A stretch of 64,000 nucleotides of DNA from Alentia gelatinosa (lineage: Eukaryota; Annelida; Polychaeta; Phyllodocida; Polynoidae): the NCBI GenBank assembly GCA_950022655.1, contig OX465581.1, positions 28,801,300 through 28,865,299 of the forward strand, read 5' to 3'. The notes below the pieces were generated by a model that made no database searches, was not told where the DNA came from, and saw only the letters and a list, made by a program, of their open reading frames with translations. This document shows positions 11,733 through 53,900 of this stretch, piece after piece. Numbering within the stretch: position 1 is the stretch's first letter; every line of letters starts with the position of its first letter. Position numbers and translations under genes: made by a program.

Positions 11733-11736
11733 TATA

Positions 11737-11882
11737 TAGAACGTCCTGACCATGCTGTACAATTCACAGAACGAGATGGTAATTTACGGTTTGTGCGGAC
11801 CGAGGCATTTATGCCGAGTTCCGTACAAACGGTAAATTATCATCGAGTTCTGTGACTTGTACAAGCATGGTTGGACGTTATA
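11737..11882. mobile_element. Palindromic family copy E: hairpin
   Basis: Long inverted repeat. The left arm (11737-11799) and right arm (11819-11882) are complementary over about 62 bp at roughly 85%. Shared stretches include ACCATGCT, CACAGAAC and TAATTTAC. The loop at 11800-11818 reads CCGAGGCATTTATGCCGAG, containing the GAGGC...GCCGAG core of copy A. Arm sequences do not resemble those of the other copies. DNA hairpin, not a gene. Confidence 0.75.
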
Positions 11883-12680
11883 TATTTACTATATATCCGA
11901 AATTTAAAAAAAATCTATTTCATTTGGTTTAACAACCAATTTTTTTATAAATGTGTATGGCAAGGTGGTCCGTATTTTAGTGTACGGACCAGCGGTCTGT
12001 ACAGTATTTTTACGTCAACGGTGCATATTTACAGTATATACGGCATGGGTATATAGTAGTGATCCTTATTTGTCTTGTCTGATTGCAATTGTAGCACGGG
12101 AAAATAGCCTTCAAATCTATGACTTGATGCACATGTTGTCATTTATTGGCACAAGTAGTTTTAATATGTTTCCATGAATCGTCAATCTTGCAGACTAATT
12201 TATTGAAGCATTAATGCTAAGTTACACCAACAACCCGGAAGTCCCGGCAACCACGGCAGCTCATTCCATACTCTTACTGTGGAAATTTTATGGTATTTAT
12301 ATAGCTTTTGCTCACTCGGTCTTGAATTGGGCCGGTGACTGAAGGCCCAACCAGGTGAGTTATATATAAAAGAAAATGGCTCTGACGTGGGCCGAAACAA
12401 GACTGTCAGAGTCACTTTTCACATAGTAGTAGCTAGTCGGGAAAGCTTTGTTTATTTTGTATCTATACGTAAATTGCCGCGACTGAACCACAGGCGGAAG
12501 GCGTGTATAAAGAAAGTCACGGGTAGGGAGATGAAAGGTGGAGGGAAATAGAAATGCATAGAGGCACAAACGTTGTAAATACAATGGGAAAAGGATAGCG
12601 GAGAGAAAGGCGCCCTGCAATAGCGGGACACAGACAGATTGCTGTGTAATGCGAATGTTTTGCACCAGGTTAATGACATA
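11883..12680. other. AT-rich stretch with short palindromes
   Basis: No gene seen. TCCGTATTTTAGTGTACGGA near 11969-11988 is a small palindrome that may belong to copy E. 12100-12680 holds only shadow ORFs. Confidence 0.35.
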
Positions 12681-12681
12681 A

Positions 12682-13033
12682 ATGAGTTCCCAATGTTAAA
12701 TCCATGGGAGAAAATACCAGGAGTAACATATGGAATGAGAAGGATGTGGCTTTATCCCACCCCAGGAATAAATGTCCATAGGCTTAACATTGGGAACTCG
12801 TTTTCCATGCCCCTACAAATATTGCAGTCCGTTCTCCATGGTCTATATCCTCTGTGTTGTCCATTCTTTTAGTGTGTACAGGGGTGAGATAAATACAGAA
12901 AGCAACTCGTTTTAGTCAAGGAAATCATTCTGCAACTCGTTTGAATGCTACATGATATTCACTCGGCTGTCGCTTTGTTCATATCACTCCACATCAAACT
13001 CGTGGAGAACGACGACTTTGACCAAAACATGTT
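12682..13033. mobile_element. Palindromic family copy D: body plus hairpin
   Basis: The body at 12751-12893 is bounded by TTTATCCCACCCC and its near inverse GGGGTGAGATAAA. Just inside the left end is CCATAGGCTTAACATTGGGA, the same end block (inverted) as in copies A and C. An inverted copy of the AACATTGGGAACTCG word lies outside at about 12684-12700. The hairpin follows at about 12903-13033: arms are ~70% complementary over ~58 bp, with a loop containing CTCGGCTGTCGCTTTG. The word AACTCGTTT occurs in the body, twice in the left arm, and inverted in the right arm. Confidence 0.7.
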
Positions 13034-16000
13034 GGTTTCTTCTTTAGTATTATGACGGATGCCCGTGCAATATACACATGTTGCTATAGACATGTATGTG
13101 ATACTTTATGTAATGTATGTTTTAGACGTCTTCATGATAAAGGATAAGATATCTAGTCACGAAGCAGTTATTTAGTACAAAGTCAACATGCCAAGGTCAA
13201 TAGTTTTGACAGTTAAAAGTAAGAAGATGGAAACTCCATATGGTAGCTCATGGTCCTACAGTTTCTTAAAACAGTTTTGCGAAATCCCCTCCAAAATAAC
13301 GTGTATACGCCCTCCAAAGAACAAAAAGGAAGTTGATCCTTCCTTGATAGAATGAAATTGAGAAAATTCATGCCTATAGCTTTCACAGTCATAGATTCCC
13401 CTATCCTCCTCCTTATTCTAGCCACCGTGTTGAACACTCCTGCACCCTTGTGTTTTCAGGCTTGTTCGGTGGGAGGCGTCGCAGTTTGCGGTGACAGCGT
13501 GAAGGGTGTGGGCGTCAGATTTGGGCAGACGACATTCCGGATGGAGCGGCTCGGCACTCCATAGATTATACCGACGCCCATCAAAAAGCGCGGGAAGCGG
13601 CAGGACGCGCCACCGAACCGGACCTAGTGTGTTTTACGCTGGTTGCCTGCCTGCTTGGGTATAATGATCCATGCCTGCCGGGGACAAGCGCGTCATCGAG
13701 GCCCACCCCGCAAGGCGGCGCCAAAACGGTTTCTTTCAGTGACGCTGCCCACGGGGGCAATTTAACTACATCGGAAGAAGCATCTCTCTCTGTCAGGAAA
13801 GCGGCGTAAAAACGCACGACTGTCGCAAGCCGTGAGGGGTAATTTCAAGTGGAATTTAGATTACTCAGTAGATATTGAGGTTTATACACGCATCCAGGTT
13901 TTTTTCCATCTTTTGCAACCGTCACTATGAATTCAACGAGGTAAAAAAACAACACCATACAAATTGAGACTGTGCGCAGATATTTCGCGTGATGGCAACG
14001 ATAAGTGACTCTGTTCTGCACAGCACACTGGAGGTTTCTTTTACACATTAAAAGTAAATGTACGGAGTTCTCACGGCTCCGTGGGAACTGCACTGTTTGA
14101 GTAGCTCTAAAATTACCCGGTAGTTCCTGGGTTTAATTGGAACGCCATATATATCATATCATATATATATGGAATTGGAACGCCATATATATCATATATA
14201 TATATACTTAGGTATTCTGCATAGAGACCATACATTAGCATGGGTAAAAATTAGTTTACGGAAACACATTCTTATTTTAAGAATGGTTAAATGAAAAGTT
14301 GCAATCCAGAGGCTAAGAAATACAGTCGAGCCTCATTAATTTACATATATCAATTGCTTGGAGCATAAAGAAAATAAGGTTAAGACAAATCTTGTATTTG
14401 CATGGGTTTTCACTCCGGATTTGAACGTAATTACTACCTCTGGAACAAAGCGGACACAGACTGGATATTAGAAAACGTTTAAGGCTCGACTGTAACCCCT
14501 TCTGAGGTAGCTGTGTGAACAGGTTACCGCGGCATTCTAATCATCTGGGCTCAAGGGAACAGCTAGCCTTGAACGGTTCTAACTCTGAGCTGCTCTGAGC
14601 ATCCTGGCTCTATTCGCTGCCAGCGCTTATTTAGTAGAAGACTGGGACTCCAGCCCGCGAAGACAGGCAGAACAAAGGAGCACGCGGGGCAGGGAGCATT
14701 GATTGGCCGCCTACCGTTCGGGGTGCGCCGCCGGCCAACTCCCTGCCACGCCTGGCGACGTGAGCTGCTCACCGAGCCGCCCCGTCCCGCTCGATCAATC
14801 AGTGCGGAGACACCTGCCGCCCAATCCCCGCACTAACCAAATGCTCTGCCGACCGAGCTGCCGCGTCAGGCAGAAACGGAACGTATTGTAACTTTCCATG
14901 TAGGTTACAGTCTTGGCTACAGGGAGATGGAGTAGGGGAAGGGAGAGATTGGTAATGGTGGCGCCTGGGGATTCTATACTGGCTCGATTCCTTCTACGCC
15001 GATTGGTCTGCGAGAGATTTGTAGCAAAAAGGGACAAGCCAGAAAACTACTCTTGGGAATATGCAGAACATTAAGAACGTAAACGATGTCTGGCTTTATA
15101 GATCTATAAGATATGAATATTAAAAGGTATATTCGTATTGATAATGCAGTCTGAACTTTGCTCGCTGCTGTTATAAATCCCGTTCTTGTAGTATGAATAC
15201 ATTGTAGTATTTAGGGGTGATTGTTGAATGCTGTATATTTTACCATGAATTGAAACGATCATGTCTAAAATAACCCTTTTTCAATATTTAGTATAATGTC
15301 ACCAGTTGTTAAAGGGTATAACAATTTGGAGTATGAGGTCAAATACTAGGGTTTTGAGGAATACAAAATTTCATATTGCAATATATATAGATGTATCTCA
15401 CTATTACTACAAATGTTCAGCGTGTAGATGCTAACCCGGGAATTTCAAGCAGTTTGATTAAAAAGTCACTAGCATTTAGCCATGTGCTTATTTCCAATGA
15501 AATTATGGCACTTTCAGTTTAGCTGTATACTAGGGCCAATCTTCGATGATTCGTAACCTCTAGCATTACCCAGCATTAATACCGTTTAAGAGCAATGGTG
15601 TGCACTTTAACGTCGAATGTGGATCCAATATTGAGCTTTTGATTTTTCACTTCAGTTTGCCTTCCAACTTCAGTGCATGCAATCCTAGTTCAAATAACAT
15701 GTCATGCCATTTTAAAGAGGAATAGATACTCACTTAATATTTATCTCAGTTAAAAATGTCAAACTATGTGTATGCGCGATGAAGACATGTGCAACATCTC
15801 AGGTTAATGTAGTTGTATCAGATAAACCATGTATATATCATGCGAATTTTTATCAACCTCTTAACGGTCATAGTCGTTCAGAGGGTTGTCCCTTGGTTTG
15901 AGTAGTTTCGAGATGTGATCCTGTGAAAAGGTTCCAACTCACTTTCACTGTTGACAGTACGACGTTAAATCGACATGACGAATGGCAGAACAGGTACACC

Positions 16001-16274
16001 GACTTCCTTTAACATATGGCGGTGCCACCCTAGTTAGCAAAGTCACTTTGACAGGCGTCTACCTTAGTTGTATAGCCAAGTAAATGTTCCGCACGGTTCC
16101 TCTGAGGTGATCTTCAATTAGTACGTATGAGAAGCTGCTACCCTCCTGCTACAACGCTTAACCGATATTTGGTGTCTTGGTTCGTGAATAACGTGAAGCT
16201 CAGATCCCTTTGGACAAGATGGTTAGGTGATCAATTCTTTGCACATAGGCGTAGACTATCGTAAAACTGGATGA
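13034..16274. other. Gene-poor stretch with two CpG-rich patches
   Basis: CpG-rich patches at about 13440-13830 and 14560-14890. The second contains a TTGATTGGCC CCAAT-type motif, AACAAAGG and an ACACCTG E-box. Between them, 14136-14197 holds a duplicated AATTGGAACGCCATATATAT unit. 14890-16270 is plain AT-rich sequence. No gene identified on either strand. Confidence 0.35.
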
Positions 16275-16395
16275 GTTTTAATCTTGGCCACTGTATGCCA
16301 CGACTGGAGTTTGGCATTGTGACTTCATGAGGCGAAGCCGAGTGAAGTCCAGGGCCAAAACTCCAGGAGTGGTATGCAGTGGCCAAGATTAAAAC
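16275..16395. mobile_element. Palindromic family copy A: hairpin
   Basis: Left arm 16275-16326 and right arm 16344-16395 are complementary over 52 bp with few mismatches. Both ends read GTTTTAATCTTGGCCACTG. The loop is ATGAGGCGAAGCCGAGT. The arms carry the TATGCCAC-type word also found in the adjacent body. No coding content. Confidence 0.8.
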
Positions 16396-16409
16396 GAATC
16401 AGGTTTTGA

Positions 16410-16563
16410 TTTTATCCTACCCCGTCTCCTCAATTTCAGAATATTACATGATAACAATTATGTATGCCACTAGTGGCATATAAAACTCCGTATGCCAGTC
16501 AACGGGGCATACAGAAACTCAATGTTAAGCCTATGGGATTTTATATTATGGGTAGGATAAAAA
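16410..16563. mobile_element. Palindromic family copy A: inverted-repeat body
   Basis: A 154-bp unit beginning TTTTATCCTACCCCG and ending with the near inverse GGGTAGGATAAAA. Inside are the palindrome TATGCCACTAGTGGCATA (about 16462-16479), further TATGCC/GGCATA words, and the end block CAATGTTAAGCCTATGG. It sits 14 bp right of the copy A hairpin, the same order as copy B. Confidence 0.75.
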
Positions 16564-19500
16564 CGTATCTCATATGTTTCAGCCGCTGGATATTCTTGTA
16601 TGTTCTGCCACCTAGTTTATCATGAAGTTCCTGATGATAAACAATGACGAAACTAGCGAAACAATGACCCCATTCTCAAAAAGTACAAGTCTCATTTTGA
16701 GGAATTCCGATAAGAGCATTGTTATTTTCACAATGGAAAGCGATATCTTTAATCAGTCGTGAACCCGGGCAGTTTAAAGCATTACTGTACTAATCATCCA
16801 TAGGAAATATCTAAAGTTCCATAATCTTTGACCTAATCTATATATCGGGAAACATCAATATCGTTAAATTCACTTTTGTATTTCTATCCCCTTCATCTCG
16901 GTTTCGTGCGTTTAACATAGGCTTGAGATATTTACAAAATGAGCTTAGCTCTATACTTCTTTTATGTTAGGGGTTGTACATATTTCGTTTTCTCAATTGA
17001 CTCATATCTATTTTTGTGAATAGGATTCTTTCCCCACAATCTTTGGGGTTTGAGAGATTTAGCAGAGGTAATCGTTGATATGGTACTATGGATCTACTTC
17101 CGGAAGCTGGGAAAGGTATTGTCTGATGTAGCCATTTCCCCAACTCCTTTTCAGCATCGAAGGACAAGGCACCTAGTGTTTGATTTTTGCCGCATCCAAC
17201 ATAACACGGTCTTTATAATAGAGGACTGTTGGCGATGAACCTCTATGTTAGTACAGCCAAGAGGGGTCAGTTGGCATGGATACCCTGGTTGACCTTGGGG
17301 TATGGTGGTATCCTGCCAAGATGACAAAGACATCACAAACCTTTCAGATTGCTGCTTGCCATGTTCAAATAATGGTCGAAATCAAAGTGGACATCACAAT
17401 GCCATTTGCGGTGCGCAATAGAGGGCACGTTACATCTCACAGCAGTTTCTGGTTACTATTCCATATATGATATTATTCCATAACATTGTACCCATTTTTA
17501 GCGGAGCTATGGTTGCACAGACCTCTTTAAGGTGTTAGTAAATGCTCTTGGGTAGTTATAGAACACCACGGAGATACGTTGAAAAGGGCATAACGCTGGG
17601 AGGGCCAGCTGGCTATGGACTCCCTTATATACATTGAGGGATCTGATAGCGGCACACCTTTCTACACAGCGGCTATAGGTAATGTGGTCTTGGCCCGCTA
17701 GGCGGCGCGCCTGCAGACGATGGGGAGCCAACGACTACAATTGGTGGCGTGTTATCACGTGACTACCGCCTGCTGACCCGTATGTACCTGACGAGGCAGA
17801 AACCTACTCCCCCGCCAATCAGCTGTCAGCGGCTTCAGTGCCTTTAGGTTGGGAGGGTGAGGTGGGAGGGTATGGTCTGTCCAGCGAACTCCCGCCCAGC
17901 TCCTCACTATTAGCCGTTTTACCTTTGGAGACTCAGCTTTAATCCCTGTACTCTCATTGCAATGCATTTGTCGCATTCTCTCTTTTTATGGACTATTTGT
18001 GTTATATATACGATCCTTGTGATAAAAACCAACGAATATCCCTCTCTCCAATCCCCTTAACTACAAAAGCATCAATTAGCTGTTTTAGAACTAATTTTGG
18101 TCATAGTCCCAATAAAATCACCATTCGCTCTTTCTTCGTTTGAGTTCGATTTTTTATGCCTCTACTTGTTCAAACCTAAAAACAAGAGAGTCAATTTCTA
18201 AGTGTTTTGATTTTCAGTTTAAATCAACCGTAATTTAACTATTTAACCTCTTAACGTTTGCAGAACACTCACTCACACGGATAAAACTAATCATCTTTAC
18301 TTGGCTCTTCAATGTAGATAATTCTGCAAAGGATTCAGGATACTACTCGTTCTCGTTCTCTTGACTCATGCGCCATGGTCTTCTGCTAGCACAACGAAGA
18401 GTATACTACTGTATTACCCACACGCTCATGGATAAAACCAGGCGGGAACGTTTGCGGCTAAACTATGATCCATTTTTTCTAATTTATAGAACGTAACACA
18501 TATAAACAATTTCCCAAAGGGTTGAATTGGCGTAATTGGGGTCGGTGCCTGTCTCATCAATACTCCTATGCACATAACACTTATGTTTCTCTATCCACTA
18601 TAGTATTCAGTAATCTCATGAATAATTCACAGGGGCAACACACATTATACCGTTCTGGGAAATATAAACACAAACTACAATGAGGGGCATTGGAAGATGG
18701 CGGGCCTATCTCTAGAAGAACCCAGATTTGCATACCAGAATACATACAGATAATACCCTCCATGATACCATATATCCACGGCAGAGTTGCAATGTTAATG
18801 GCTTGATAACAAACAGGATATTCCTATTACGTTTTGAGGCACGCAAATAAGTATTTATACTTTGGAATTGAAATAGGAACAGAAGCTTGGAGGTACACAA
18901 CCTAATATTTGGAAAGAATCAAATAGAAATAAAACAGACCAAGAAAAGGCCGTGCTAGAGTTCTAGGTCGGCACTGCAGTTCAGTTGGGACCAGTCCAGG
19001 CGCCATGGCGGCCGGCATGCTGTGTTAAGTGCACGCGACGTCTTGGATCTGTTCCAGAAAACTCCGTCTGACGGTAACCATTGGTTTGAGGGAAGCCCTG
19101 ACGCCAAGGCCACCCACTGACCGCACGGAGGGCGGGAAGAACGCGGCAACCAGCGGCGGTTACCCAAAGTCGTCCACCGGTCGTCGACAGCAACCCTACT
19201 TCGAACAGCTATTAGAAAGCTTCTTGATTTCAAATTACCGCTGGATCCCATGAATTAGATCAAATTGAATTCAACGTGCAAGGCCCTCAAGCGTTAAAGG
19301 TGACAATCACAGCGAAAGGGAAGAAAAATGATACAGGATTAGACGTTACCCACTCGTCTTCCTAGATCAGCTTGATCTTATGAACCCATCCCCACAAGGA
19401 CTTACACACATACATAAGGTATCGGATATACAGTGAAATCTGAATTCTAGGGAGTGGATGCATTTGGATGTTAAAGAGATATAAGGGAACAATTGTACCG

Positions 19501-20140
19501 CTTTTTATGGAGATTTGGAATATATGTTTATGATACGAATCGTCACTATTATAAGCAATACTGTAGATTTTTGCATTTAGCTATACGTGTAGTATAGCAT
19601 CGTATTGCAACTTTACACTAACTAATAAGCTACAGGGTGCGGAAAATATTTAGCTTGCTTGTTCATTTTAGTACGTAAGATAATAAACGTAACTATAGTG
19701 ATACCTTCATGAAGAAATAGAACATTTACCTCTCTGATGAATGAGCGTGGAATTATTAAAAAACAATTTAAAGGTTTGGGTTTTAACCAGGCAGTGGGAA
19801 ATTTGCTGTAATCCTCTTTGGCAACCATGGTTCTAGTCTGCTGGACACCCTTCTAAAACACTAAGACACTGGTCCTCTGCACATCATCAATGTCTCAATG
19901 GAAAGTGTCTATAACCTTAGTCTCTTTCACGACCGCTTGGGGCACTTGAGCCGTGAACACGCCGTCTGGTGAGTGGTGGCCGCACTACAGGCTATCTATA
20001 ACCTCTCCCTTAAGGCCCTTTTCCATTGGCCGACAAAAGCGGTGTAGATTTTTTTGTGGTCTCCTAATAGCCTATTTACATTTTCCGTCAGCAGTGCTGA
20101 GGGTCAGTCGGTGGTTCCTGACTGTATATATCGGTGATGA
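16564..20140. other. Gene-poor stretch
   Basis: No gene identified. Moderately GC-rich segments at about 17580-17930 and 18955-19250, otherwise AT-rich. Short ORFs are not in conserved families. Confidence 0.35.
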
Positions 20141-20168
20141 CCAATGGAAATAGGAGGAGCCTCGCCTC

Positions 20169-20900
20169 ATGTGTCATCTCACTCTGCTCCCTCACTCACC
20201 TCAACCCAGCTCTGGCCAAGCCGGCGCTTCACACATTGCCATGCGGCACACAGCTCCTGCTCCTTCAGCCTCCCATCCTCACCACAGGTCGCACCACATG
20301 TCTCGCACGTGTCTTCCTCACCACAGGTCGCACCACATGTCTCGCACGTGTCTTCACTTCTGCCCTGGTCGCCGGCCACAGCTCTCATGTGTCCCTCGCC
20401 TGAACTCCAGCGTCCGGCAGACCTCGCCCCCCATGCTGGGGTAGGACTGTCAGCTGCTCCCCCTTCATGTTCAATCGCCTCTCCACTGCCCGAGCCGCCT
20501 CTCCATGCAGACCTCTCCTGCTCCTCCAGCTTCACATCCTCACCACAGGCCACATTACATAACTCGCACATGTTTTCACCTCCACCCTGGCCCTGGCTGC
20601 AGGGCTCCCTTCACATGCTGGCCTACAAGTTCAGGCGGCAAACAAATCCAAGGCACAAGGAGCTCAGGACATTCTCAGGCTTTCGGGGGGGCCGCCGCCA
20701 CCCCTCGGGCTCTACACAGGTTCACACGAACCGGCAGCCCTCGCCCCCCCCCCACACACACACACTGGGGTAGAACCGTTTGTTCCCCTCATCCAGTCCA
20801 GTCACTGCTGGCATATGACATGTCGTCACACATCCCGCACATCCCGCAGCAGGTCCAGGTACGTCCTGTGTCTTCACACGGTGACCCATGGCCGCCCTGG
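20169..20900. repeat. GC-rich degenerate repeats with 39-bp units
   Basis: Two identical 39-bp units stand in tandem at 20278-20316 and 20317-20355. A diverged third unit lies at about 20533-20571. On the minus strand each unit encodes 13 residues with a C-x2-C-x3-C pattern (CETCGATCGE, CELCNVACGE), inside an open frame at 20179-20571. Longer echoes (CTGGGGTAGGAC near 20438, CTGGGGTAGAAC near 20764) suggest an older large tandem structure. I do not recognise a protein family. The plus-strand Pro/Ser/His-rich ORF across it looks like a composition artefact. Confidence 0.5.
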
Positions 20901-21464
20901 TCTCCAGCCTACCAGCCCGGGACCTGGGCCCACTCAACCTTCCTCCAACACCGGCATCATAGGCCGGCTCATGTCTTCCAGTTGGCCTCTTTCACGGCCC
21001 GGCTCTCCCCTTCACCATTAACTCTTCCTGGCTGCTGTTGACCCGCCTGGCCTACACGTTCGTGTTGGCTGCCCCTCCGTGGCTGCCGATGTGACGTCTT
21101 GACATCAGCCGCGCCCCCTGGCCACCACAGGCCTACCCGACCGGCATCCTTGGGCGACCCGGCCTTCGGGATATCCCCGCTGGCCTCCTGGTCTGGGCCC
21201 GGGCTCTGATCCGGGTTCGACCGGCTCAGCTAGAGCCTCAGCCAGCCCACTCGTCGCTCTACTACACACCACCCAGGGCTCACAGTGCCTACAGAGCTGG
21301 GCACTGCCCTTCCTCACCGAACTCAAATATTTCTACAAATCCTGAGCAATTGCCTTGGCAATTGCCGCAGGGATTTATGGAGATGACCTCTTCTCTCTCC
21401 AACACTCACCTCTCTCCTGTCACCTTGCTATGACCATCATCTACAGATTGCTCTACCTCTCTTG

Positions 21465-21610
21465 ACTCTGGGCACTGGCAATCTCAATAGCTTGTGACAT
21501 TTCTTTTATAATTCAATTATATTTTATATTGTAATTACTTAAATTTATCTCCTTGTTAAGTGTAATTCAATATATTTCTATTCATTACCGTGTTTCTTTG
21601 GTAGTCATTA
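21465..21610 (+). repeat. LTR-like dispersed repeat, partial copy 1
   Basis: 3' part of the repeat that follows at 21611. Shares GGCAATCTCAATAGCT with copy 3, and GACATTTCTTTTATA, AATTTATCTCCT and TAGTCATTA with copy 2. It abuts copy 2 directly at the TCATTA/GGGCTAACTGG junction. Confidence 0.65.
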
Positions 21611-21950
21611 GGGCTAACTGGAAGAGTGGGCTGTAATGCGGTAACAGGAGATGGTTGATATGGATGCTTATTCATGTGGTTCTGGTCATGTGGTTCCAGT
21701 CACGTGATCATCCTGCTCCGCATACTGTCCTTGCCCACTTCAACCTGGGATGCCAACGACAAAGGAACCACCCACTCACCCCACAAAACAACTCTTCACT
21801 CCCATTTCCTCAATTCCCCCTACCTCGTAGCTCATGACATTTCTTTTATATCTTAATTATATTTTGTATTGCAATTACTAAAATTTATCTCCTCGTTAAG
21901 TCTAGTTCAATAAATTTTTATCCATTATCATGCTTCTGTGTTAGTCATTA
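21611..21950 (+). repeat. LTR-like dispersed repeat, copy 2
   Basis: 340-bp unit from GGGCTAACTGGAAGAG to GTTAGTCATTA. Contains CACGTG-like words (TCACGTGATC near 21699) and an AATAAA-type signal near 21910, about 40 bp before the end. Copies at 21465-21610 and, inverted, 25130-25415 show it is a dispersed repeat. The late AATAAA and fixed ends fit an LTR or a short non-autonomous element. No clear TG...CA ends or target duplications. Confidence 0.65.
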
Positions 21951-25415: not shown

Positions 25416-26161
25416 GGTTGGTCAAGGTTCCAGCACCGACTCCCCGGAAAAATTGGTCTATCGTGTTCATGTTAAATACAAATTTATTCGATTCAACCTT
25501 CGCAAATCTTCGACTATGCCCTTGAGCATTGCGACTAACTTTGTGGCTTATGGCGAACTAGATGCTAAGGAATATAAGATGTCAGATAATATCCAGACAC
25601 ATATATTACGGCCGAACATTAATTCAAGGCAGGAGATGCCGTACCAGGTCGTCGTAGCCGGAAGGCCCGGCCAGAGTGGAGGATATCAACGGCCCCCAGA
25701 CCCAGCAGTGGTTCTCAGTAGTTCAGGGATTAGCTGCAAGCTCTACTTGACCCTTGAAGCCTGGGCTTAACTTCGGCACAGTACATCGAGCAGCTCTGAA
25801 ATGGATGCCTCTTAAAGTCGGTGACCGTGAGAAGTAGTGAGGTCTTTGCTGTTGAGGTGGCGCGGAGGGAGAGGCGTGGAGATTATTCCTGTTATAACCG
25901 TGAATCTAAATAAGTGATGCTGTGGTGGGGTAGGGATTTTAGTGTCGTCGACGGTGCGTTTCATATTAATTATTTTGGTAGGCATAAAAGAAAATTTGTG
26001 TTGATGAGATTGAACGAACCGTGCTATAGAAGGTGTTGGAGAATATTGTGAAGGTGAGTCGGTAAAGATGAGGTTGGTGTTGTTGAAGGTGAGGTCAGTG
26101 TCATTGAAGATGAAGTAGGTGTGGGCTTTCTGTCCAAAAGGCTGCAGCTAGCATCAATTTA

Positions 26162-26312
26162 GTAGAAACTGAACGGGAGCTAGACTTGTCAGTGTTTATG
26201 CCACAACGGGAAGGTCGTGTATTACTACGCGAAGCATTAGCTGAGCGTAGTGAGGAACAGACCTGACCAGAGTGGCATAGACACTGACAAGTCTAACTCG
26301 AGTTTGGTTTCG
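26162..26312. mobile_element. Palindromic family copy B: hairpin
   Basis: Left arm 26162-26230 and right arm 26245-26312 are complementary. The core TAGACTTGTCAGTGT is exact. The outer ends pair imperfectly. The loop is GAAGCATTAGCTGA flanked by the closing stem CTACGC/GCGTAG. The arms contain TATGCCAC, the word repeated in the body. Confidence 0.8.
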
Positions 26313-26313
26313 T

Positions 26314-26562
26314 ATTTATCCTACCCCGTTTCTATGCTTTTGGATTACTAAAAGACAAATATCGATTGAATGACCAACTTAAATCCAACCGGAACTTTTG
26401 AGGCCAACCGGAACTTTTTTTGGAGCAGCTGACAATCTGGTCACTGATTGGTCAATTTGTTTATGCCCCTAGAGGCATAAATCGCTATTTATGTCATGGC
26501 ATGCCGCATAAAATTTGCCTATGTTATGCCTATGGACCGTTTTTATTAGGGGTAGGATAAAA
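26314..26562. mobile_element. Palindromic family copy B: inverted-repeat body
   Basis: 249-bp unit bounded by ATTTATCCTACCCCG and GGGGTAGGATAAAA. Contains the palindrome TTATGCCCCTAGAGGCATAA (26461-26480), several other TATGCC words, a tandem CCAACCGGAACTTTT near 26387-26416, and the end block ATGTTATGCCTATGG. Same orientation and spacing to its hairpin as copy A. Confidence 0.75.
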
Positions 26563-29880: not shown

Positions 29881-29884
29881 CACA

Positions 29885-33439: not shown

Positions 33440-33760
33440 ACTCCGTCGAATCGTGTTCCGCGAAGCTGGCGCAGGGCGCAGTTGGGCATATCGAGCCGGG
33501 GGCGGCAGCGGTGCAGAGCGGGGGTGCGGCCAGGCGGTCTGATGTGTTTTAATGTGGTTGGTATCGATGGACCGGGGCAGGATTAAAGCATTAGGGGCCG
33601 CCCCACCCCGCTGTATACCCGCTGATCCCTACCGATCCAGTCCGCCTAATGACCGGCATACCCACCGGCAGTACCGCACCTCTCCCCCCTCCCCGGGGTG
33701 GCGGAGGGGAGATCTACCTACCTGCCATCTATCCGCCCCTTTTTATATATATAGTGCCAC
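33440..33760. promoter_or_regulatory. CpG-rich patch with homeodomain-like motifs
   Basis: GC-rich island. Contains TGTGGTTGG (RUNX-like), GGATTAAAGCATTAG (GGATTA plus ATTAG homeodomain-type cores, about 33580-33594) and CTAATGACC (about 33646). The motif cluster fits a developmental enhancer but is only suggestive. Confidence 0.25.
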
Positions 33761-39089: not shown

Positions 39090-39147
<58 letters not shown>

Positions 39148-43688: not shown

Positions 43689-44566
43689 ATATGATCAATT
43701 CTCACAGATCGTGATCGATGCCCACGTACGGTGACCAAAAATTCAAACTAGTTATATCTTCATAAAAGAAGTGGAAATATATACCAGAAGACAATACCTT
43801 ACATGTGTAAAAGTTGGGAACACTAATCTTTATAGAAAATTAGTTTTTTAGCTGAAGGAATTTAACCTTATAACTCCTATGTCACCGTACGTGGGCATGA
43901 GGGTGTGATAAGGCCTTAGGGGACATATTGCTTGTTATTTATTAACAGAATTAGATTTTCATTTTTAGAAAATGAACCTCAAATCATATTTAGTAATTAC
44001 AAGTTGATTAATACTATTCAGAATATAATGCCCACGTACGGTGACCGACCCACGTACGGTGACATACCTAAAAATACTTATTCATTTCTTAGCATTAACT
44101 AGCCTGAGGTATTTGCAATTTGTAGGTTTGAAGGGTTCTCTAATACTCTATTTATCTGAAAAATATTGTTTAATCATATCAAAAATTCTGCCCATGTACG
44201 GTGACCACATAAAGTTCACCAACCATGCTAAATTGGCTGTGATATGCTTGATAGAGGGAATAAACTTTACACTACAGTTTCTATGCAACTTTTTATAGCT
44301 GAGAATTTACAAGAGGTCCCCAAAATCTGGTTATATAGGTTCCACCTATGGATTTTGGGCTAAAAATGCCTATTTTAGAGGTTTATAAATTTTCTTTCAA
44401 GATATAGGTACATGAAAGTGGGGTTCCCCTGACAGATTTTTCATTTCTACATACTCTAATATCGTTTCTGATATCATAAAACGATAAATAGATATGAAAA
44501 CGATCCTTTGAATTATTGGTCACCGTACGTGGCCCATCGATCACGATCTGGGAGAATTGACCATAT
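43689..44566. mobile_element. ~880-bp inverted-repeat element with six CCCACGTACGGTGACC copies
   Basis: Terminal inverted repeats 43689-43736 and 44518-44566 match over about 48 bp, including TCAATTCTC and AGATCGTGATCGATG. The word CCCACGTACGGTGACC or a close variant occurs at 43721, 44031, 44049 and 44191 on plus, and at 43881 and 44518 on minus. The element has no credible ORF. Repeated subterminal words of this sort usually bind a transposase, so this is likely a non-autonomous DNA transposon. Confidence 0.75.
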
Positions 44567-44712
44567 AGTTCTCATTAATTTGCACCATTTCAACAGTCAT
44601 CATTTGAAGATTCAGCCTCAGAGATTCATTGTCACGCCTCTCATCATTGTCTTGTGGTGCAGGCCATGGAAGCTGAAGTGATGTAGAGATGTAGGGATTT
44701 AGAGCAGAGTAA

Positions 44713-44915
44713 AGGCCTGATTCCATTGTGCTGATTTCACTCCCGATATGGTCCAGATGTACTCCAGTCTTAGTGCTGACGCCCGAATACCCTGTTCCAT
44801 TGCGCCGATGGCCTCCAGACAGACACCAGACAGAGGCCAGTTATGGTGCCAGGGCTGAAACTGGAGTACATCTGGACCACATCGGGAGTGAAATTGGCGC
44901 AATGGAATAGAGCCT
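44713..44915. mobile_element. Harbinger-like MITE with TAA duplication
   Basis: 203-bp foldback unit. The ends (AGGCCTGATTCCATTG and CAATGGAATAGAGCCT) are inverted, and complementarity extends about 57 bp to ACTGGAGTACATCTGGAC. TAA flanks both sides (44710-44712 and 44916-44918), the target preference of PIF/Harbinger elements. A third copy of the TTCCATTGCGCC word is in the centre. No coding capacity. Confidence 0.75.
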
Positions 44916-44952
44916 TAAATCAAACTGACATACACAGTCCATCTTGGAGCTA

Positions 44953-45303
44953 TCATCCATTACCAAAAGGTGAGGAATGGCTCCTGTGTACACAATGTAC
45001 TTGTAGATAGGCAACATAGTTCACCCTCTGCAGATAACAATCCAAAGTGTCCTTGTCGGGTGGAAGGTGCATGGTCTTTTTCTTCTTGTGTCCTTTCCTT
45101 TTCCTGGCTCTTGCTTCCCCCAAACTTGTACTTTTAGTGTCAAGATAGACAAACTTAGGAACAAACTTCTCAAGCTCACTAATAGTGTTTGGCATGGTAG
45201 GAAGGCGCTGCCCACAGTCTGAGAGTAACTTTTGAGCTTCCAAGGACTTTTTAACATTTTCAAACATTGATTTGACTGGAATGGGATGGATAAATATACC
45301 CAT
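44953..45303 (-). pseudogene. C-terminal-like piece of uncharacterised repeat-associated protein family
   Basis: Open 116-codon minus-strand frame: a Lys/Arg-rich stretch (RARKRKGHKKKK), then LPPDKDTLDCYLQRVNYVAY, then SPFGNG at the end. From memory this LPPT/D-x-D-x(2-3)-L-H/Y-x-L-R-A/V-x-Y ... SP-x-x-x-G-W pattern is the C-terminal part of a large uncharacterised protein family abundant in cnidarian, mollusc, echinoderm and amphioxus genomes. The usual Cys-rich tail is absent. It lies head-to-head with the N-terminal pieces on the plus strand, so the original gene is rearranged. Confidence 0.5.
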
Positions 45304-45314
45304 GTCTATGACAA

Positions 45315-46930
45315 GATTCCTTGGGAAAAGGGTGTCAACTAGGTTTTATATGCACTCTTGCTGCTATACTATTCTATCTAATCGTGAGAAACTTGCACAA
45401 GCTGAAACACACAGAGCAAAACCTAAAGCAGAGCAGAAAGAAGATACTGTTGAGGAAAGTCTTCTCCTGGTTAACCAGCACCTTAAAGGTCATGCTCAGA
45501 TATAGGCATCATTCTTAACAAGCCCATATGTGTTTGGTGCATGAAAGGAGAGCATAAGAAGGCCAGGCAAATGGAAAAATGCTATGTATCTTTACCAGAG
45601 CTGCATGGGGAAAGTTCAAAGTACATTCAATTCATATACAGAATCTGAAAATAAGAGAAAGATTCAATAATTTAATTTCATCTCTCATTGACCTCCAAGG
45701 TGCAGAAGTTTGGTACCCTAGGGGCTGTTGGCTAGAGTATATTGATCATACATCTGATCTCTCCAAGGAAACCAGATGCACATGCAAAATATAACCATTA
45801 CAGAGGCAAAGGCCATCTTTATTCACCATGTGGAACAGATTATCATGGGAGATCATGAAATTTGCACTTTACAGTCTTGGCCAATACTACAAGAGGATTT
45901 TCTCAAACTTTGGCCATGCATCTACAGCCAAATCCAACTTCATAAAGGAACTTCTCACAGAGGAATTTGGTGAAACTATTGCGTTCCATCCTTGTCCTCA
46001 AAGGAACATGAGTGAAGTGGTGTATAACACAATATCCGCTGGGTTTTATGTGGAAGTTGCTCTCTCCTCACTTGGTATTACAACTGACCAGCTTGACAAG
46101 AACTGTGCTATCAGGCTGAGGAAAGCAGTGCTGACCCCCATACATTTATGAATTTGTAGATGATAAAATCCTAAATGTTAGTCTACTGACCTTCCTTAAC
46201 TGAACAACATTCAGCAACTGTAACTAATCTGACAGCCATGCTGCATAATATTAGTAAAAGTAGAGAGACTGCTGACATTCTACATAGTAAGAAATTGGGA
46301 ATCAGCTTCAAAGATCTCCAGTTTTGGGCTATAACCAGTCCAATAAAGTCAATCAATTGCCCATTTGAGCTACCAGATGGTGAACCAGCTGCAGCGGTAG
46401 CGGACAATGATGATTTTGAGAATGTTACACTGACAGGTGCTGGACAGTCTCACTGTGCAAATGTCATGTTTGTGCAGGCTGGTGCCTTTAACACAGCTAA
46501 TGATATTGGCGGCCACAATATTTATCCAGCCGTCCAGGAGAGGTTTCCTCAAAGCTGAAGGAATTTGGAGGGGAAATGCATGCAACAGCCCCATACATGA
46601 CACAAAAGAAGGCTGAACCACATAGGATAAACACCCATGTGGATCCTAGAGACACAAAAGCCCAGCACATGCAAAGTGTCACACATGTATTGGCCAGTAA
46701 AAATGGGGATGGGACATGTCCAGCACCAGAAGAACAAACTGTTCCTGGATTTCCTGGTTGTCAAGCCAACAAGTTCATGCCAGATGAAATGAGCAAGGCA
46801 ATATATTACATGACATTTGCCAAGCTATCAATCAAAACTTTCTCATATAATGTCTTGTGCAAGCTCAAAAGGGCAATTGAAGAAAGAGGAATGCCATTGG
46901 GATTGGTAGTAAGTGATTATCCAGTCTAGT
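45315..46930 (+). pseudogene. Broken N-terminal and middle pieces of the same uncharacterised family
   Basis: Several plus-strand frames in order: a Lys-rich segment (45320-45510), a segment with FIKELLTEEFGE and FHPCPQRNMSEVVY (about 45830-46150), and one with VADNDDFENVTLTGAGQSHC at about 46394-46453. A continuation (46576-46930) follows after a frameshift near 46545. The D-N-x-D-x-x-x-x-T-L-T/S-G-x-G-x-x-H motif is the family hallmark as I remember it (usually W-D-N-x-D). Frameshifts and stops mean no intact protein. Lies between the 3.9-kb element's terminal repeats. Function unknown; the family is often found in repeats. Confidence 0.55.
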
Positions 46931-47266
46931 TCTTCTTTTAGATCATACCCTTTATGGGTACATTCCACATCTAAATGAGCTACATGTGCACAATATATAA
47001 AAGAAGGAAGTGGAAGAAGGTGTAATTGCAGATGGTTCAGTTGATCAGGCCTTGTGAGGCAAACACTTTGAATGCGGGGTTTATTGTCAATGACTTTTCT
47101 ATGAGGCACTCCTGCAAAGGGTGCTAGACAAGAGCATTAAGAATGCACCTCTTTTGACCGTTCTTGGCTGTCAGTGCCGTCCTCGGGTGAATTAAAAAAA
47201 ATGTGTTATTTCAGAGTCTTCCCCTGCCTACTCAGTGGGACATAGCAGCTAAATTTTATCAAAATG

Positions 47267-48035
47267 ACCTATTATTGACCTATTATTATTCCCGCAAAAC
47301 TTTACGACCTGATTCAGGTCTTCTTGAACTCGATTTGAGATTATCTGTAGGTCTTTGCCTGATGAAAAAATCACTGCGTCATCAGCATATAGTTGTAGGT
47401 GGCAGTTCAAAACTACTCTGTCAATACTGTTTATGTACACCAAAAAGTACAGGGGTCCAAGAATGGTCCCCTGGAGTACCCCGTGGGTGATTGGTTTAAG
47501 GTCTGATGTTGTGCTATTAGCTATGGTACACTGGAATCTGTTTGTCAGGTAATTTGAAATACAAGTTACTATGCTATTACAAATACCAATTTTGTTTATT
47601 TTATGGAGTAGAATGTTGTGGTTAACCATGTCAAATGCTTTGGAGAAATCAAGGAACGTGGGTAAGGTAAAATCACCTTCATCCATGCTATTGAGAATAT
47701 TGTCAGTTAGATCAGCCACAGAGGAGATAGTACAGTGCTTTGACCTGAACCCACCCTGCCGTTCGTTCAACAAGTTAAAGCCTTCAAAGAAGTTTATAAT
47801 CTTCTTGTGAACTACTTTCTCCATCAACTTCCCTGGAAGCGGTAGTAGCGAAACAGGCTTTAGGTTTCCTACCTCATTCTTAAAGTTACTTTTCTTAAGG
47901 GGAACGACTTAAGCCACTTTCCACACATCTGGGAAGAGTCCTGTTTCTAGGGAGGTTTGAAATGTGTGCTGCAATTGAAGTATTAGGACTTCAAAGCTAT
48001 CCTTGAGGACGGCGGACGATAGATACTCAATAGCA
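47267..48035 (-). pseudogene. CR1/jockey-like LINE reverse transcriptase fragment
   Basis: Minus-strand reading from about 48035: SSAVLKDSFEVL, LETGLFPDVWKVA, an in-frame TAA near 47900 where VVPLKK should follow, then PVSLLPLPGKLMEKVVHKKI. The open 192 codons at 47827-47249 continue with GGFRS, LDFSKAFD, GVLQGTILGPLYFLVYIN and LYADDAVIF. These are RT motifs of the CR1/jockey branch, different from the Tx1-like LINE at the left end. The reading stops at the junction with the terminal repeat of the 3.9-kb element, so it is 3'-truncated there. Inactive. Confidence 0.85.
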
Positions 48036-50163
48036 GATGACTACTTCTACTAACAATCAGAGCACACTGATATCTGATGGGACAGACTCCCTACTTGGCA
48101 CAAAGCCAGCAAACCTGTTTGACCAGTTATTCACCCTTCACTATCCATGCAGCAAACATAAAGGCCTTGTAAAATGGTCAGGTGCTCAGTATCCCAGTCC
48201 GACCATACCCCTTCTCTAAAGCCATAATGTTAGTGAATAGTTGTATTATTGAGGTGGTCTTTATGTACAAGTCTAATGTACTTTAGAAGTATCGCGCTCA
48301 TCCATTGTAAATGTAAATATCATTAGCACATAGTACTGTTAGTGTGCCAGTAAGCCAGGTACTAGAAGAAGGTAGAAGGCGCACAAAGCTATGTAAAATG
48401 TGTGCCCTGTGTGCAAAAAGGCACGTATATACGGGCTCTATGGTTAGATATAAGTATAAACCGCATATGATTGTAATAAATGGAGCGTTTGGCATCCAGT
48501 GATGGAATCCTGAGGGGTTTTCAGAGGACAGCTGATGCAATCTGTGTGGAACTGATGAATTGTCAGGACATCTCCACACGGAGGATAAGGCATTGTTAGT
48601 GGCATTGGCATGCAAATTGCAGGTCTGCTGACAACTATTAATGGACCTGACACAGTCTTGGTACACATGTGGTCTTAGTGGTACTGAGGTAGTATTAACC
48701 AACCGTTGATACATCAGAAACGTGAAGATACTCTAAAAGTGAGGAACACATGGAATGCAATCGGCTTCAGTATTGTTGTGCTTGCAACACAGAGTTTCTG
48801 ATAGCACAAGAAGTTCTGAAACGCCGACTTGGGTTACTCTCAGATCCTACCAGATGTGATTGCAACACGAACATGTGAACGTAACACCACTCACATGTAT
48901 TGGGAAAAATTCCTTCCCTGCCCCCAATGGTGCATACATCAGCAGTCGCTCGCGCTGTGTGCCTCGTAAATACGTCACTGAACACTGGCATATATATTAT
49001 CTTGATTACGACCTGGAAGTACTCATAATGTAGGAATATATACATGTATGTACTAATTAGGTTCTGATGAATAATGCTTCATTATATACATGTAGTTCAA
49101 TTGCTTTTGTTACTGGCATATTGATTTACCAATTGATATCGGGAAAAGAAAAACCTCAACTAGACCATAGGTCACTAGAACCCTGGATAGTTGATAGAGA
49201 AATCTTATCAAACTTGGTGAAATTAGCCTGTAACCAAAGGTACAGCTATTCCAAATAATTGTATTTCAAACATCACTACTAAAGTTAATGAGCTAGTCCC
49301 TGTATATGTAAGTTGTAAAAAGTTACATAAGCATCTATTTCCCAAACAGCTGATGATCACTGACCTTTTTCGGCTGCAGACAAAGCCCAAGTGAGAGTGC
49401 TGCCCACTAACGGCACCTAAGAGATTTACTCCTCCCTAATCACGTCTTATTTCCATCGACATAGAAAAACATGCCTCCTTTCAGACGGGAACCATGTGAA
49501 GAGGATTTCTCAGTCATAGTATTTTTTCAAATAGATGTACATGTATATATAACTGCACATATATATACATGGGAACCGCCTACCTTCGGACGATTAATTT
49601 GGTGTATGTATCCTCAAAAGTTTATACTGCATATTTTTATCTTAATGTATACTATACGGTTTGATTCTGACAATTATTTCAGCCCAAATCAACTCCATTT
49701 CTTCTGATTGATTTGAAACTTGTGTCTACCGTCAATGTTTAAATCTTTCGGATTAACTAATCTCAATATAGAATTATTTATGCTTGGCCCCTCAGAGGCT
49801 GGCCGCACGGGAACATCATTCAGGTAACAGCATCTCTGTTTAATGCTAGATATACATTGAGGATATGCTTATAATTGTTTCGGGGTGGAACTAAGGTCTG
49901 CGAGTTTTAAGCCTTACGAGGCATCCTGCATGCAGCAAAAATACCTTTTTCATCACGACTGCGTCTTTCATTATTTGCCTGATGAACATGTCCTTCCGGT
50001 ATTCTGCCTAATGACTTGCCAGCCTGGCAGCTTGGCAGCCTGCCCTTGGTGCCACACCACCTTTACATGCCTCATTCTTCTTCCTTAATTTGATATACAT
50101 AAACCTGAAACTGGGCAATATTTGAAAAATATATCTCACAAAGTTCTGTTTTGACATTTTGAA
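48036..50163. other. Non-coding stretch between LINE fragment and LRRC74 gene
   Basis: No recognised gene. A 138-codon minus-strand ORF at 48298-48714 shows no family features and is Thr/His/Leu-rich. The remainder is AT-rich, with no inverted repeats of note. Confidence 0.4.
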
Positions 50164-50289
50164 TTTATTCATAGACATAGTAAGTGTTCACAGACAATAA
50201 GTAGGTTCCCCTCAGTTGTTGTAGAGTTCAGGAATTATCATTGTTCTGCATAAGTAGACTCAAGATAAAACATTAATTAAACATTTATT
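50164..50289 (-). promoter_or_regulatory. Candidate polyadenylation signals of the LRRC74 gene
   Basis: AATAAA on the minus strand at 50284-50289 and 50164-50169, about 320 and 440 bp past the stop codon. Either would give an ordinary-length 3'UTR. Inferred from sequence only. Confidence 0.5.
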
Positions 50290-50606
50290 AAATGCAACTC
50301 CCAATCTTATTTAAGTAGCTGGTAAATTCCGATAGTCACTGTCTTAGACAACAAAGTGTTTAAGAAGCAGAGCGGAGTCCATATCAATTACAACACACCA
50401 GGTTACTGTCATTTCTATGGCAGAGCCTAAACCTTCATAAGGGTGAGCATAATCTCCTGTAGTGACCAAGACCTTGCTCCCCAGCCACCGACCAGCCTCA
50501 TTTGTCATAGATATGACTAGGAGGAGGTTTAAATCACATAAACGGAGTTGAATACACATGTACTATACAGTAGTTTGCAATCCGAAGGATATGTTCCTGA
50601 ATAATA

Positions 50607-50940
50607 TCATTCAACCGGTTGCTCCCTCTTTGTTAATTCTAGTTTAGCGATCTTTCCAGAGCCAGTGCTCGGCACTGGGGATTGTGGACTGGTAACTTCC
50701 ACATCAGGCTGCGATGTAGTATTTATGTTATTCGTTGACGTTTTAGCAGACGGCGTCTCGGTGACGTCACTGCCGATCACTTGACTCGTTAGCAATGGCT
50801 GACTTCCGTTAGCGACCAGGTTGTTGTCATTCAGGAAGGACTGGTTCCGAGAGTGCATGCTGGGGGTCTTTGGCACAAAGCCCATGTATCCTTTCTCTTG
50901 TGCCTGAATAGCAGAGTTCTCCATTTGTTTGAAGATATCC
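50607..50940 (-). CDS. LRRC74A: LRRC74-like terminal exon
   Basis: 334 bp ending in TGA at 50607-50609. Acceptor CCCCTGTAG. Finishes EF-hand 2 (GDIFKQMEN), then has a Ser/Thr/Asn/Pro-rich low-complexity tail ending KREQPVE. The tail has no recognisable domain. Confidence 0.88.
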
Positions 50941-53900
50941 CTACAGGGGAAATCACGATAAAAACCGTTACTCGAGCTTATAAACATGCAAAACATTTAT
51001 AAATATAGCTCTAAAGTATCATAAACACGAAAGAAATCGAGTAAAGAGTCTAGCTTCATTTTTCTTCCAGTAGTCATAAGTGTGTAATTTATTTTTGTCA
51101 TAAGGATAAGACTCTTACCCGTAGAAGACCTTTCCATCGCCTTTCGTATCTAATTTGATAATGAGATCGTCGACCTGGTCCCTGGTCAAAGGTGAAAATA
51201 TTTCCTACAAAAGGAAATAATATGATGCTCAATTATTTCATAGCAAGCGTAAAGGATTCCATACATGTTACTCTTATATGACGAAATAATTGAATACCTC
51301 TGACATTAACAACTCTATCTCATCTATGTAACATTCTGTATGGGATTATTCTATACTTTAGACTTACATAATAAACTGAAAAATACGTATTTGCTGTCCA
51401 TTACAAGAAACCATCTAACCTGTTAACATTTTACTGAACACGTACATCTTTCAATTATTTCATATCAGTATTGGGAATAATGGATCACCTATCACGTATC
51501 ATTTAGCAGCGATTCATTACACATCCAGATGTTCTTAAACCATATGTTTAACTTTAGTATACAAATCTGAAGGTCAGAAGCATTCCTGAATACACCATTG
51601 TGGCAATTCAGTTTATAGATTGAGGTCATCTACAAACTGTTCATCATAGTATGCATGTATAATCATCAGACTCACAGTCTCGTTCATTTTTCTGTGTTGA
51701 GTCACATGTTCTAAAGGTTCTACAAGAATAATTAGATTCTTAGTTTTCCGTTGTGTCAGCATAGTGGTGTAACCCACCTCCATAGCGGTTGTGAAGTCGT
51801 CTGCACTGACGCTGTAAGAATGATCCGCGTCGAACTTCCCGAGCACGTCCAGTACCCGGATGTCGTGTTGGAATATGTGCTCGCGGAGCACCAGCAGCGG
51901 GTCTCGCCGGAAGGGGTCGACGGCAGGCTTCCCAATGTCGTCTGGCGTGTTCCCCGAACGCAGCGTTGGGCCGTGTAGGAGACGCAGCTCACGTTTCTGC
52001 TCCATGGTCTCACACAACTTGAGCAGCTCACTCTCTATGGGGATGTCCTGTGGAAGCAAATGGAAGGAGGAGGAGGTATAGGGTGAGCAGCTCTTTGATC
52101 CAGTGAAACCTCTTCAGGTCTCCATCCTTTAATTGAGAAACTATACACATCAGTGTCGTCTTTCTCCAAACTAATGGCAAAATTATTTGCAAATGGCTTC
52201 ACAAGAGGTATAAAACAGAATTTGCTCGTTAAGTTTAACACTAAGTTGAGGTGAAAGGGTAGATTCTTAAGCTGCAGATACGAGAATAAGGACATATAAC
52301 GATCTGGAATGTTTAAGGGTGTAATAGAGGGTAACTCTTCTGGTGGCCTAAATTGCTTTATTTCTATCTTGGCAAAGAATGGGACTCCGTCAATAGCAGC
52401 CAATGCAATAGATAAGAACATTTATGGAATTTAAATTTCTTAAGGGAAATGTAAGACGTAGAGTAGAACATGGACGCAACTTTAACTTGGAACGGATGTG
52501 ATCCCTTTACGCTGGAATCTACTCTAATTGTACTAAGACTCTAAGGCCACGATGACGCGTGGGACAATTAGCAAAGCTAGAAAGAAGTAGAGAACATACA
52601 AAATTCCTCAAAATCTCTTGAGCATCTAATCTAAAGTGCTATGGATAGTTTATATTTAAATGATTCCAACAGAATCTCTTTAAATAATCTTAAGATTTCT
52701 GTGTGACTTACAGAGAGGTCAAGGCAGGTTAACTGGCTGTTTTCGTTGTCATTCAAGGCGTTAGCGATATCTATTGCTCCTTTTGTCGTTATTGGGTTGT
52801 TACCCATCTGGTCATCAACAAAATGGAAACCATCATGAGTCAATTAACAAATACGAATCACATTTTATCATATTCTATACAGAAACTACTGAGAGATCAG
52901 ATCTGTGAAATAATCTGTGCAATAGACTTTTATCAAAAGAAAGTAGAAGGAAAACCGTCTAACACCCCCTACGTCAATGTTTATGCTTATTCTTATGCCT
53001 TATGATCCATTTCGATTTTTTTTTATCAATCCTAGGCGACAGATATGTATGCGGCTCATATAACGTAGTGTACTTTTGAATTTACGGACTAAGGACGTAT
53101 CGTCCGATCCTGCACATTCTTTTAAATTTTCATTACAAACATAACTATCGATGATGCAAATCTATGACGCTTAAGTGAAGAATAAATGTGAAATACCTTT
53201 AAGGTAAGAAGATCCTCGTTCTTTCTCAATCCCTTAGCGATAGAAATGGACGCATGCGCATCTATTCGGTTTCCACTGATATCGATTTCTTGCAGCGTCT
53301 CATTGACCCCAATAGCGTCGCCGATCGCTGCGCCACCTTCCGGGCCAAGCCCGTTCCACGCCAGGTTGATCACCTTTAACCGGATGTTCTCCTGAAGCAT
53401 GAAACATAATGCAAAGTATACCGGATATTAGACACCATACATCAACCATTATCAATAGACATTTCGGCTATGACTAATGTACATAAACCTCACTAACAGT
53501 TCGCAAAATACTGTAATTGCTAAAGCATTTAAATGAAAAGCTTAATACTACCACATATGATATTTTATCTCACCCCGGTATTTTTCTCCATAAGCTTAAC
53601 ATCAGGAACCCGTACTCCATGGCCATGAAATTCGTGTACCCAATACTCAATGGCTAATTGGGTGATTCATTTTATCAATAAATCATGTTATACGGGGTGA
53701 GATAAAATCAGAAACCCAATCGGTGAAATAACTGGGTCCGCACTCCACCTCGTTTGACCACAGAGTAATTCACTCAGCTTTGCTTCGTGAATTACTCTGC
53801 AGTCAAACTCGGTGGAGTACAGACCAAGCTATTTTCATCTCGTGGGTTTACTTCTAAGAACTTGCAATCATATTATGATTAACCACGGTTAGCGATCTAG

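Follow-up and report, generated by a model that had tools for sequence, protein, structure and literature searches.

What are the five hairpin-bearing sites in a stretch of 64,000 nucleotides (the window) of the genome of the polynoid annelid Alentia gelatinosa (assembly GCA_950022655.1, contig OX465581.1), and what keeps their long arms self-complementary when the arms of different sites are so unlike? The original prediction, made from the letters of the window, described a palindromic element in five copies (A to E), a hairpin with a conserved loop lying next to a short inverted-repeat body, and left a choice between selection on the foldback structure and a mechanism that rebuilds one arm from the other. 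We find that the five sites are non-autonomous mobile elements, and that the structure-defined hairpin is common to many transposon families and thus more general than these sites.

Anatomy and abundance of the elements

Read on the strand with the hairpin to the left, which is the one bearing the G.A pairs described below, each element consists of a left end of 5-9 nt (TATC, TATG, TTAG and others), a hairpin of about 130-150 nt, an inner repeat, a body, and a right end that is an inverted copy (reverse complement) of the inner repeat (TTATCCTACCCC or an equivalent). The elements of the window are the following:

16257..16560, plus strand: element A (family S1), 304 bp, with left end TATCGT, hairpin, TTATCCTACCCC, body and right end TGGGTAGGATAA
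16263..16407, plus strand: hairpin of A, a predicted fold, with G.A loops in matching columns of a 29-copy alignment (outer TGAG/CGAA, middle CGAC/GGAG, apical TGAG/CGAG)
16412..16423, plus strand: inner repeat of A, TTATCCTACCCC, from a motif scan
16549..16560, plus strand: right-end repeat of A, final letters ATAA, from a motif scan
26159..26560, plus strand: element B (family S4), 402 bp, with hairpin 26165-26311, inner repeat 26316-26327 and right end 26549-26560
53565..53857, minus strand: element C (TTATCTCACCCC type), with right end 53565-53576, inner repeat 53694-53705 and hairpin at about 53709-53849, its left boundary taken from a relative in locus L068
12752..13046, minus strand: element D (TTATCTCACCCC type, decayed), with right end 12752-12763, inner repeat 12881-12892 and left end TAAAGAAG, preceded by ATAC
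about 11732..12059, plus strand: element E (complete, other repeat type), with hairpin 11733-11884, inner repeat TTTACTATATATCC 11885-11898 and right end GGGTATATAGTA 12047-12058, its final base taken from other copies

The hairpins of A, B, C and E form long duplexes when folded, as had been predicted (DNA fold energies of -52.0, -45.7, -45.2 and -54.3, respectively), and that of D is decayed (-21.5). The TTATCCTACCCC- or TTATCTCACCCC-type termini of A-D were also recovered, together with the inner block AATGTTAAGCCTATGG, which is present with changes in these four copies. E had been taken for a hairpin only, and proved to be a whole element with a repeat pair of its own; E-type elements have the identical plan with the pair TTTACTATATAYCC / GGGTATATAGTAA. 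Further repeat types are GGGGTGAGATAA (in C and D), GGTGG(A/G)TAATAA and GGTATATAATAA. Two loci contain tandem arrays of right ends, perhaps as products of missed termination: E-type ends with a unit of about 42 bp at L006 (minus strand, 24-300), and GGTGGGTAATAA-type ends with a unit of about 58 bp at L044 (minus strand, 27-560).

The search for more copies was extended to the whole genome (1.23 Gb in 101 contigs, the window being on contig C3), where GGGGTAGGATAAAA occurs exactly 17,525 times (8,795 + 8,730 by strand) against 5 times (2 + 3) for the reversed control, indicating thousands of copies. With up to two mismatches it was seen eight times in the window, where 0.57 matches are expected, and seven of these are ends of A-D; the eighth, at 33574, is unrelated to the elements. 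Copies were drawn from 30 motif loci and 40 further stretches, most of them picked for the S repeat. Reading TTATCCTACCCC ... GGGGTAGGATAA as a pair, with one mismatch permitted in each, gave 62 repeat pairs (L007 1502-1996 being a loose match), which were grouped by their left-side sequence into S1 (25 copies, the family of A), S2 (23), S3 (5), S4 (2, the family of B) and seven singles. An end filter retained 50 of the 62, and consensus sequences were built from 25 copies of S1, 22 of the 23 of S2, five of S3 and two of S4. The 13 family representatives referred to below are these four consensus sequences and nine single copies. A separate pairing of left and right ends yielded at least 62 pairs, four or more of which seem to begin at a false start; it was repeated on 60 of the 62 for the empty-site analysis. 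Folded as DNA, the sequence upstream of the body reaches -20 or lower in 55 of the 60 copies tested (of 62), and that downstream does so in 17 of 60, so that hairpin and body, whose independent occurrence would have spoken against a single element, belong together.

Tandem G.A loops and covariation of the arms

The property that the hairpins retain across families is a tandem G.A mismatch (GA opposite GA, on one strand), which occurs one to three times per hairpin in 12 of the 13 predicted family folds. The S1 and S3 consensus hairpins are long duplexes interrupted mainly by 2x2 loops of this kind, and across the 13 folds 21 of 24 such loops are GA/GA, the others being CA/AA, GC/AA and AA/GC. 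Three GA/GA loops were counted in S3 and C, two in S5, E, F, G and S1 (three for S1 in a separate consensus fold), one in S2, H, I, J and K, and none in S4. Where more than one is predicted, neighbouring loops are, by subtraction, 24-29 nt apart toward the tip and 29-31 nt further out. Sheared tandem G.A pairs are favoured by the 5'-pyrimidine-GA-purine context of the loops, and the hairpin tip of family S1 consists of GCGAAGC, which as DNA forms a mini-hairpin of high stability. The conserved core that had been assigned to the apical loop is thus real, but as an internal loop of tandem G.A pairs close to the tip and not as the apical loop itself; in families with more than one predicted loop, similar ones are present further down the stem.

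The same mismatch dominates when palindromes are collected irrespective of family. In 92 sequences (265,543 bp, most of them selected by the S repeat) 64 palindromes were detected, and among the 15 commonest types of tandem mismatch listed, GA/GA plus TC/TC (the GA/GA loop on the opposite strand) ranked first with 64, followed by CT/CA plus TG/AG with 15. A scan for 2x2 loops in the loci without the window, with overlapping loci counted twice, gave GA/GA plus TC/TC in 51 of 117 cases, the next being CA/CA plus TG/TG (18). An unselected sample of 16 stretches of 2.5 kb (40 kb) contained five palindromes, four of which belong to these families by inspection, three of them with a counted GA/GA loop; the fifth (L104) is outside the families. 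A long imperfect palindrome in the window (44707-44921, with 77-nt arms of 81%) has no counted GA/GA loops and does not belong to the family.

The arms had been described as freely changing, and arms that align well across copies had been named as a sign of ordinary transposon divergence. Both statements hold at one level only: 5' arms are alike in no families of the 13 except S3 and S4 (blastn, E < 0.05), whereas inside a family the arms align, with a mean column identity of 92% over 29 copies of S1. Covariation, which had been proposed as a test, is evident in these 29 copies, where 12 pairs (54 cells) are altered on both sides, as compared with 5-10 pairs and 5-14 cells in controls with a slid 3' partner. 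Of 500 shuffles, none equalled the observed covariation score, number of paired cells or number of double-change cells, and the number of pairs was equalled by five and that of pair types by 13; the counts are inflated by the relatedness of the copies, and the structure was taken from their consensus. The mismatches themselves persist, the GA/GA state being found in 25 (outer), 23 (middle) and 25 (apical) of the 29 copies, with most exceptions being single G-to-A changes. Among the 87 loops (29 copies with three loops each) none has turned Watson-Crick at both positions and three have done so at one position. Identity is 95.4% in the GA columns and 91.9% in paired columns. Copying of one arm onto the other would erase the G.A mismatches, and since these persist in S1, the rebuilding mechanism is disfavoured. 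Selection on the foldback structure is supported, because compensatory changes in S1 are accompanied by G.A loops that recur across families with unrelated arms.

Such selection might act on the hairpin as RNA, for example as a Dicer-type precursor or as a protein ligand. The 24-29 nt spacing of the G.A loops is near small-RNA length, and tandem G.A pairs are stable in RNA too. The hairpin, however, accompanies transposon ends and a pairing of repeats, and we regard a function as RNA as quite improbable; an Rfam scan of the window gave nothing at gathering scores, so that no known RNA speaks either way.

Ends, target site and empty sites

To define the boundaries, the joined flanks of 60 copies were compared with all fetched sequence. 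A match across the junction was obtained for 18, three of which (L040, L067 and L045) are the element itself. Among the 15 remaining paralogous empty sites 12, all concerning S families, join without a gap within 6 nt and without target duplication (L031, with two, L033, L036, L037, L038, L042, L058, L060, L063, L007 and L020); the matches of L042 and L003 are weak, and L036 and L020 lie inside tandem repeats. Thus, the empty sites for which the original prediction called set the boundaries of the S families.

The left flank carries a target motif, RTAN starting at position -4, in 54 of the 77 copies with both ends (3.4 expected), comprising 23 of 34 in S1, 18 of 27 in S2 and 13 of 16 in S3-S5. 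Over eight left-end patterns RTAN precedes 85 of 124 ends against a background of 4.4%, some S3/S4 copies being counted twice; by type, it is found in 8 of 11 cases for E, and weakly in D (3 of 7) and I (2 of 5). At the other side, the consensus right ends of five repeat types terminate in RTAA. Most of these letters were already contained in the search patterns, the last A of the E type being free and present in 15 of 16, and it is for the S families alone that empty sites demonstrate the stop of the element at RTAA. Immediately behind another element's RTAA, seven distinct elements have their start (L005, L040 twice, L051, L067, L074 and L082), which lends weak support to the mechanism proposed below. 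L051 resembles a head-to-tail pair. A second, weaker RTAN is seen at +7 in the right flanks, one helical turn past the first motif, in 10 of 34 S1 copies and in 13 of 77 overall against 3.4 expected (p 3e-5 per offset, with many offsets tested).

The inserting unit that emerges bears on two other explanations. Taken alone, the body with its 12-bp inverted repeats is MITE-like (MITE, miniature inverted-repeat transposable element), as would befit ordinary MITEs of a DDE transposon that have terminal repeats and a captured palindrome. Such MITEs would carry an inverted repeat at either end and be flanked by a target duplication, whereas here the unit includes a hairpin outside the repeats, which is mainly one-sided, and 12 of 15 sites show neither gap nor duplication; this explanation we consider highly improbable. 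Exact joining would also fit a tyrosine recombinase acting on a folded strand, in the way that integron integrase acts on attC, and the similarity of the two junctions (TAN and TAA) could then represent a short crossover core. The attC sites, at which bacterial gene cassettes recombine, are recognised by the folded shape of one strand, and their arms vary; they differ in not being whole transposon ends. The variable base before the junction mostly matches the left flank of the copy at empty sites, which argues against a recombinase, and we judge this origin very unlikely.

Proposed mechanism and related systems

The reading that we prefer, and which we hold to be about evenly poised between right and wrong, is HUH-type single-strand or rolling-circle transposition with a hairpin recognised by its shape. 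From the anatomy, the covariation, the recurring G.A loops, the exact joining at most empty sites, the RTAN target and the RTAA ends, all demonstrated here, we infer a single-stranded intermediate, HUH chemistry, the identity of the transferred strand and recognition by shape. In the single-stranded element the hairpin would fold and the inner repeat would pair with the right end, bringing together the left cut site (after RTAN) and the right cut site (after RTAA) where two helices meet. Cleavage and joining would then produce a circle, in which the junction of RTAA with TATC restores a site; this circle would be reopened at the junction and joined elsewhere between RTAN and A, without target duplication. 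The enzyme would read the tandem G.A pairs of the hairpin and not the arm sequence, and the arms could drift freely provided that pairing persists. In folds of the left module, a short spacer and the right end (strings built for S1, E and C, with the body omitted), the hairpin is followed directly by the repeat duplex, whose end coincides with the right cut; the left cut falls on or close to the hairpin's 5' foot. Such a fold of paired modules would explain the asymmetric repeats, the hairpin between them and the motif common to both cut sites. The G.A strand, which is the more stable strand in 10 of the 13 families, is favoured as the transferred strand, because HUH nucleases generally recognise the bases 5' of their cleavage site.

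Several observations weigh against this mechanism. The RTAN motif leaves the transferred strand unfixed, and on the opposite strand it is 3' of both cuts. In families C, I and K and in window copy D, greater stability does not lie with the GA strand. At three of the 15 empty sites (L052, L061 and L003) the junction has a gap no more than 6 nt away, and since right ends make up 4.3% of the RTAA sites in the enriched fetched DNA, about two of the seven abutting starts are expected by chance. The target base at -4 differs between S1 (16 G:13 A) and S2 (1 G:17 A; counts among TA sites, p 0.0005, post hoc), so that one fixed specificity does not explain target choice; as S1 and S2 have a common repeat, this suggests that the hairpin side influences the choice. 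A role of the inner repeat as guide for the target purine was considered and is unsupported (E 5 G:3 A against 21 G:45 A for the S families, p 0.12).

The search for a mobilising enzyme adds to these difficulties. Profile searches, in which the best candidates were scored and introns ignored so that absence is unproven, gave no match to the Y1 transposase PF01797 in the genome (5 of 14 controls were positive). Rolling-circle Helitron genes are few, with one match to PF14214 genome-wide and nine to PIF1 (PF05970) in about five places (contig C7 at 36.82 Mb and at 36.81 Mb, C1, C2 and C9), of which the group on C1 is perhaps a host gene. The sole PF14214 match is held by a degraded Helitron with Rep and helicase pieces (L071 with L092 and L093, contig C7, about 36.82 Mb); at this single Helitron locus inspected, none of the ends described here was found within about 6-8 kb on either side. 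No convincing long (autonomous) copy was present among the fetched loci, and one body/end pattern had no exact match in viral contigs.

In plan, the elements resemble Helitron2/Helentrons and their HINE derivatives (PMC3627910, PMC4067079, PMC5148889 and PMC7492417), but hairpin size and target differ. Shared features are inverted repeats in an asymmetric arrangement, with one copy at a terminus and the other next to a terminal hairpin, the lack of target duplication, high copy number and a non-autonomous nature. The elements could be HINE-type derivatives with an oversized 3' hairpin and asymmetric terminal inverted repeats, moved by a RepHel protein, for which TTATCC (or TTAC) would be the 5' end. 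The terminal repeat, its inverse just inside the terminal hairpin, the absence of a target duplication and the 5' T would then be as in Helitron2 (PMC3627910) and HINEs (PMC4067079), and the right-end arrays of L006 and L044 recall HINE repeats. Helitron2 has a hairpin formed by the 5' repeat, and the terminal repeat of E (window 12013-12058) likewise forms a local hairpin, with 11 of 12 repeat positions paired; this hairpin is absent in S1, S2 and C, however (2, 0 and 0 of 12 positions paired). The terminal hairpin here is many times longer, about 130-150 nt as against a palindrome of 5-10 bp in mite HINEs (PMC4067079), and its recurring tandem G.A loops have no parallel in the Helitron2/HINE literature covered. 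Insertion on the TTATCC-first strand occurs between T and NTAY (between RTAN and A on the other strand), and not, as in Helitron2/Helentrons, at TT or between TTTT and T/C; the scarcity of Helitron genes in the genome also argues against this origin. The terminal-repeat hairpin of E led us to raise our estimate of a Helitron2 origin slightly, which nevertheless remains rather unlikely, and to lower both that of HUH-type transposition, to the even balance given above, and that of an unnamed group, which is discussed below.

In its manner of working, the proposed HUH-type transposition is like that of IS200/IS605 elements. According to PMC5934647, IS608 inserts 3' of a TTAC that is kept in the left flank, has a separate right-end site and hairpins on one strand, and shows a preference for the next base. 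A subterminal hairpin on one strand, a tetranucleotide target kept at the left, a presumed right-end cleavage site, a preference for the base that follows the site and insertion 3' of a fixed short target without duplication are all features of the present elements too. IS608 is bacterial and has short hairpins at both ends, however, whereas here there is one long hairpin plus a 12-bp repeat complementary to the right end; PF01797 was not found here, and hence the elements work like this class and are not placed in it. Replitrons are eukaryotic HUH-type transposons, to which the elements would be akin if HUH chemistry applies; according to PMC10741241, they occur in green algae and several plant groups, and have short direct terminal repeats and target duplications of 2-8 bp, which the empty sites described here lack. 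No hairpin of the present kind was found in the literature searched, which left most subscription journals out of reach.

Tentatively, then, the elements may constitute an unnamed group of animal transposons, which would use folded single strands, have the hairpin read by shape and the repeat paired with the right end, and show a polarity opposite to that of Helitrons; we consider this possible, if doubtful. In kind, the elements are probably rolling-circle-like and distinguished by a new recognition element.

The window contains other features besides these elements:

1321..5124, plus strand: uninterrupted frame of 1267 aa (no internal stops) that encodes endonuclease, reverse transcriptase and zf-RVT domains, the open reading frame of a retrotransposon of the long interspersed nuclear element (LINE) type
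47249..47827, minus strand: a second reverse transcriptase fragment
8440..8509: a long (AT)n run

The transposon DNA described here is a case of covariation in paired arms. Such hairpins number four in the unselected 40 kb and five in the 64-kb window. If the enzyme reads shape and not sequence, the arms can diversify at will, which would account for a single machinery serving the many families of a genome. Spaced at set distances, the tandem G.A pairs would represent a structural code, open to searches in other genomes and to tests with oligonucleotides.

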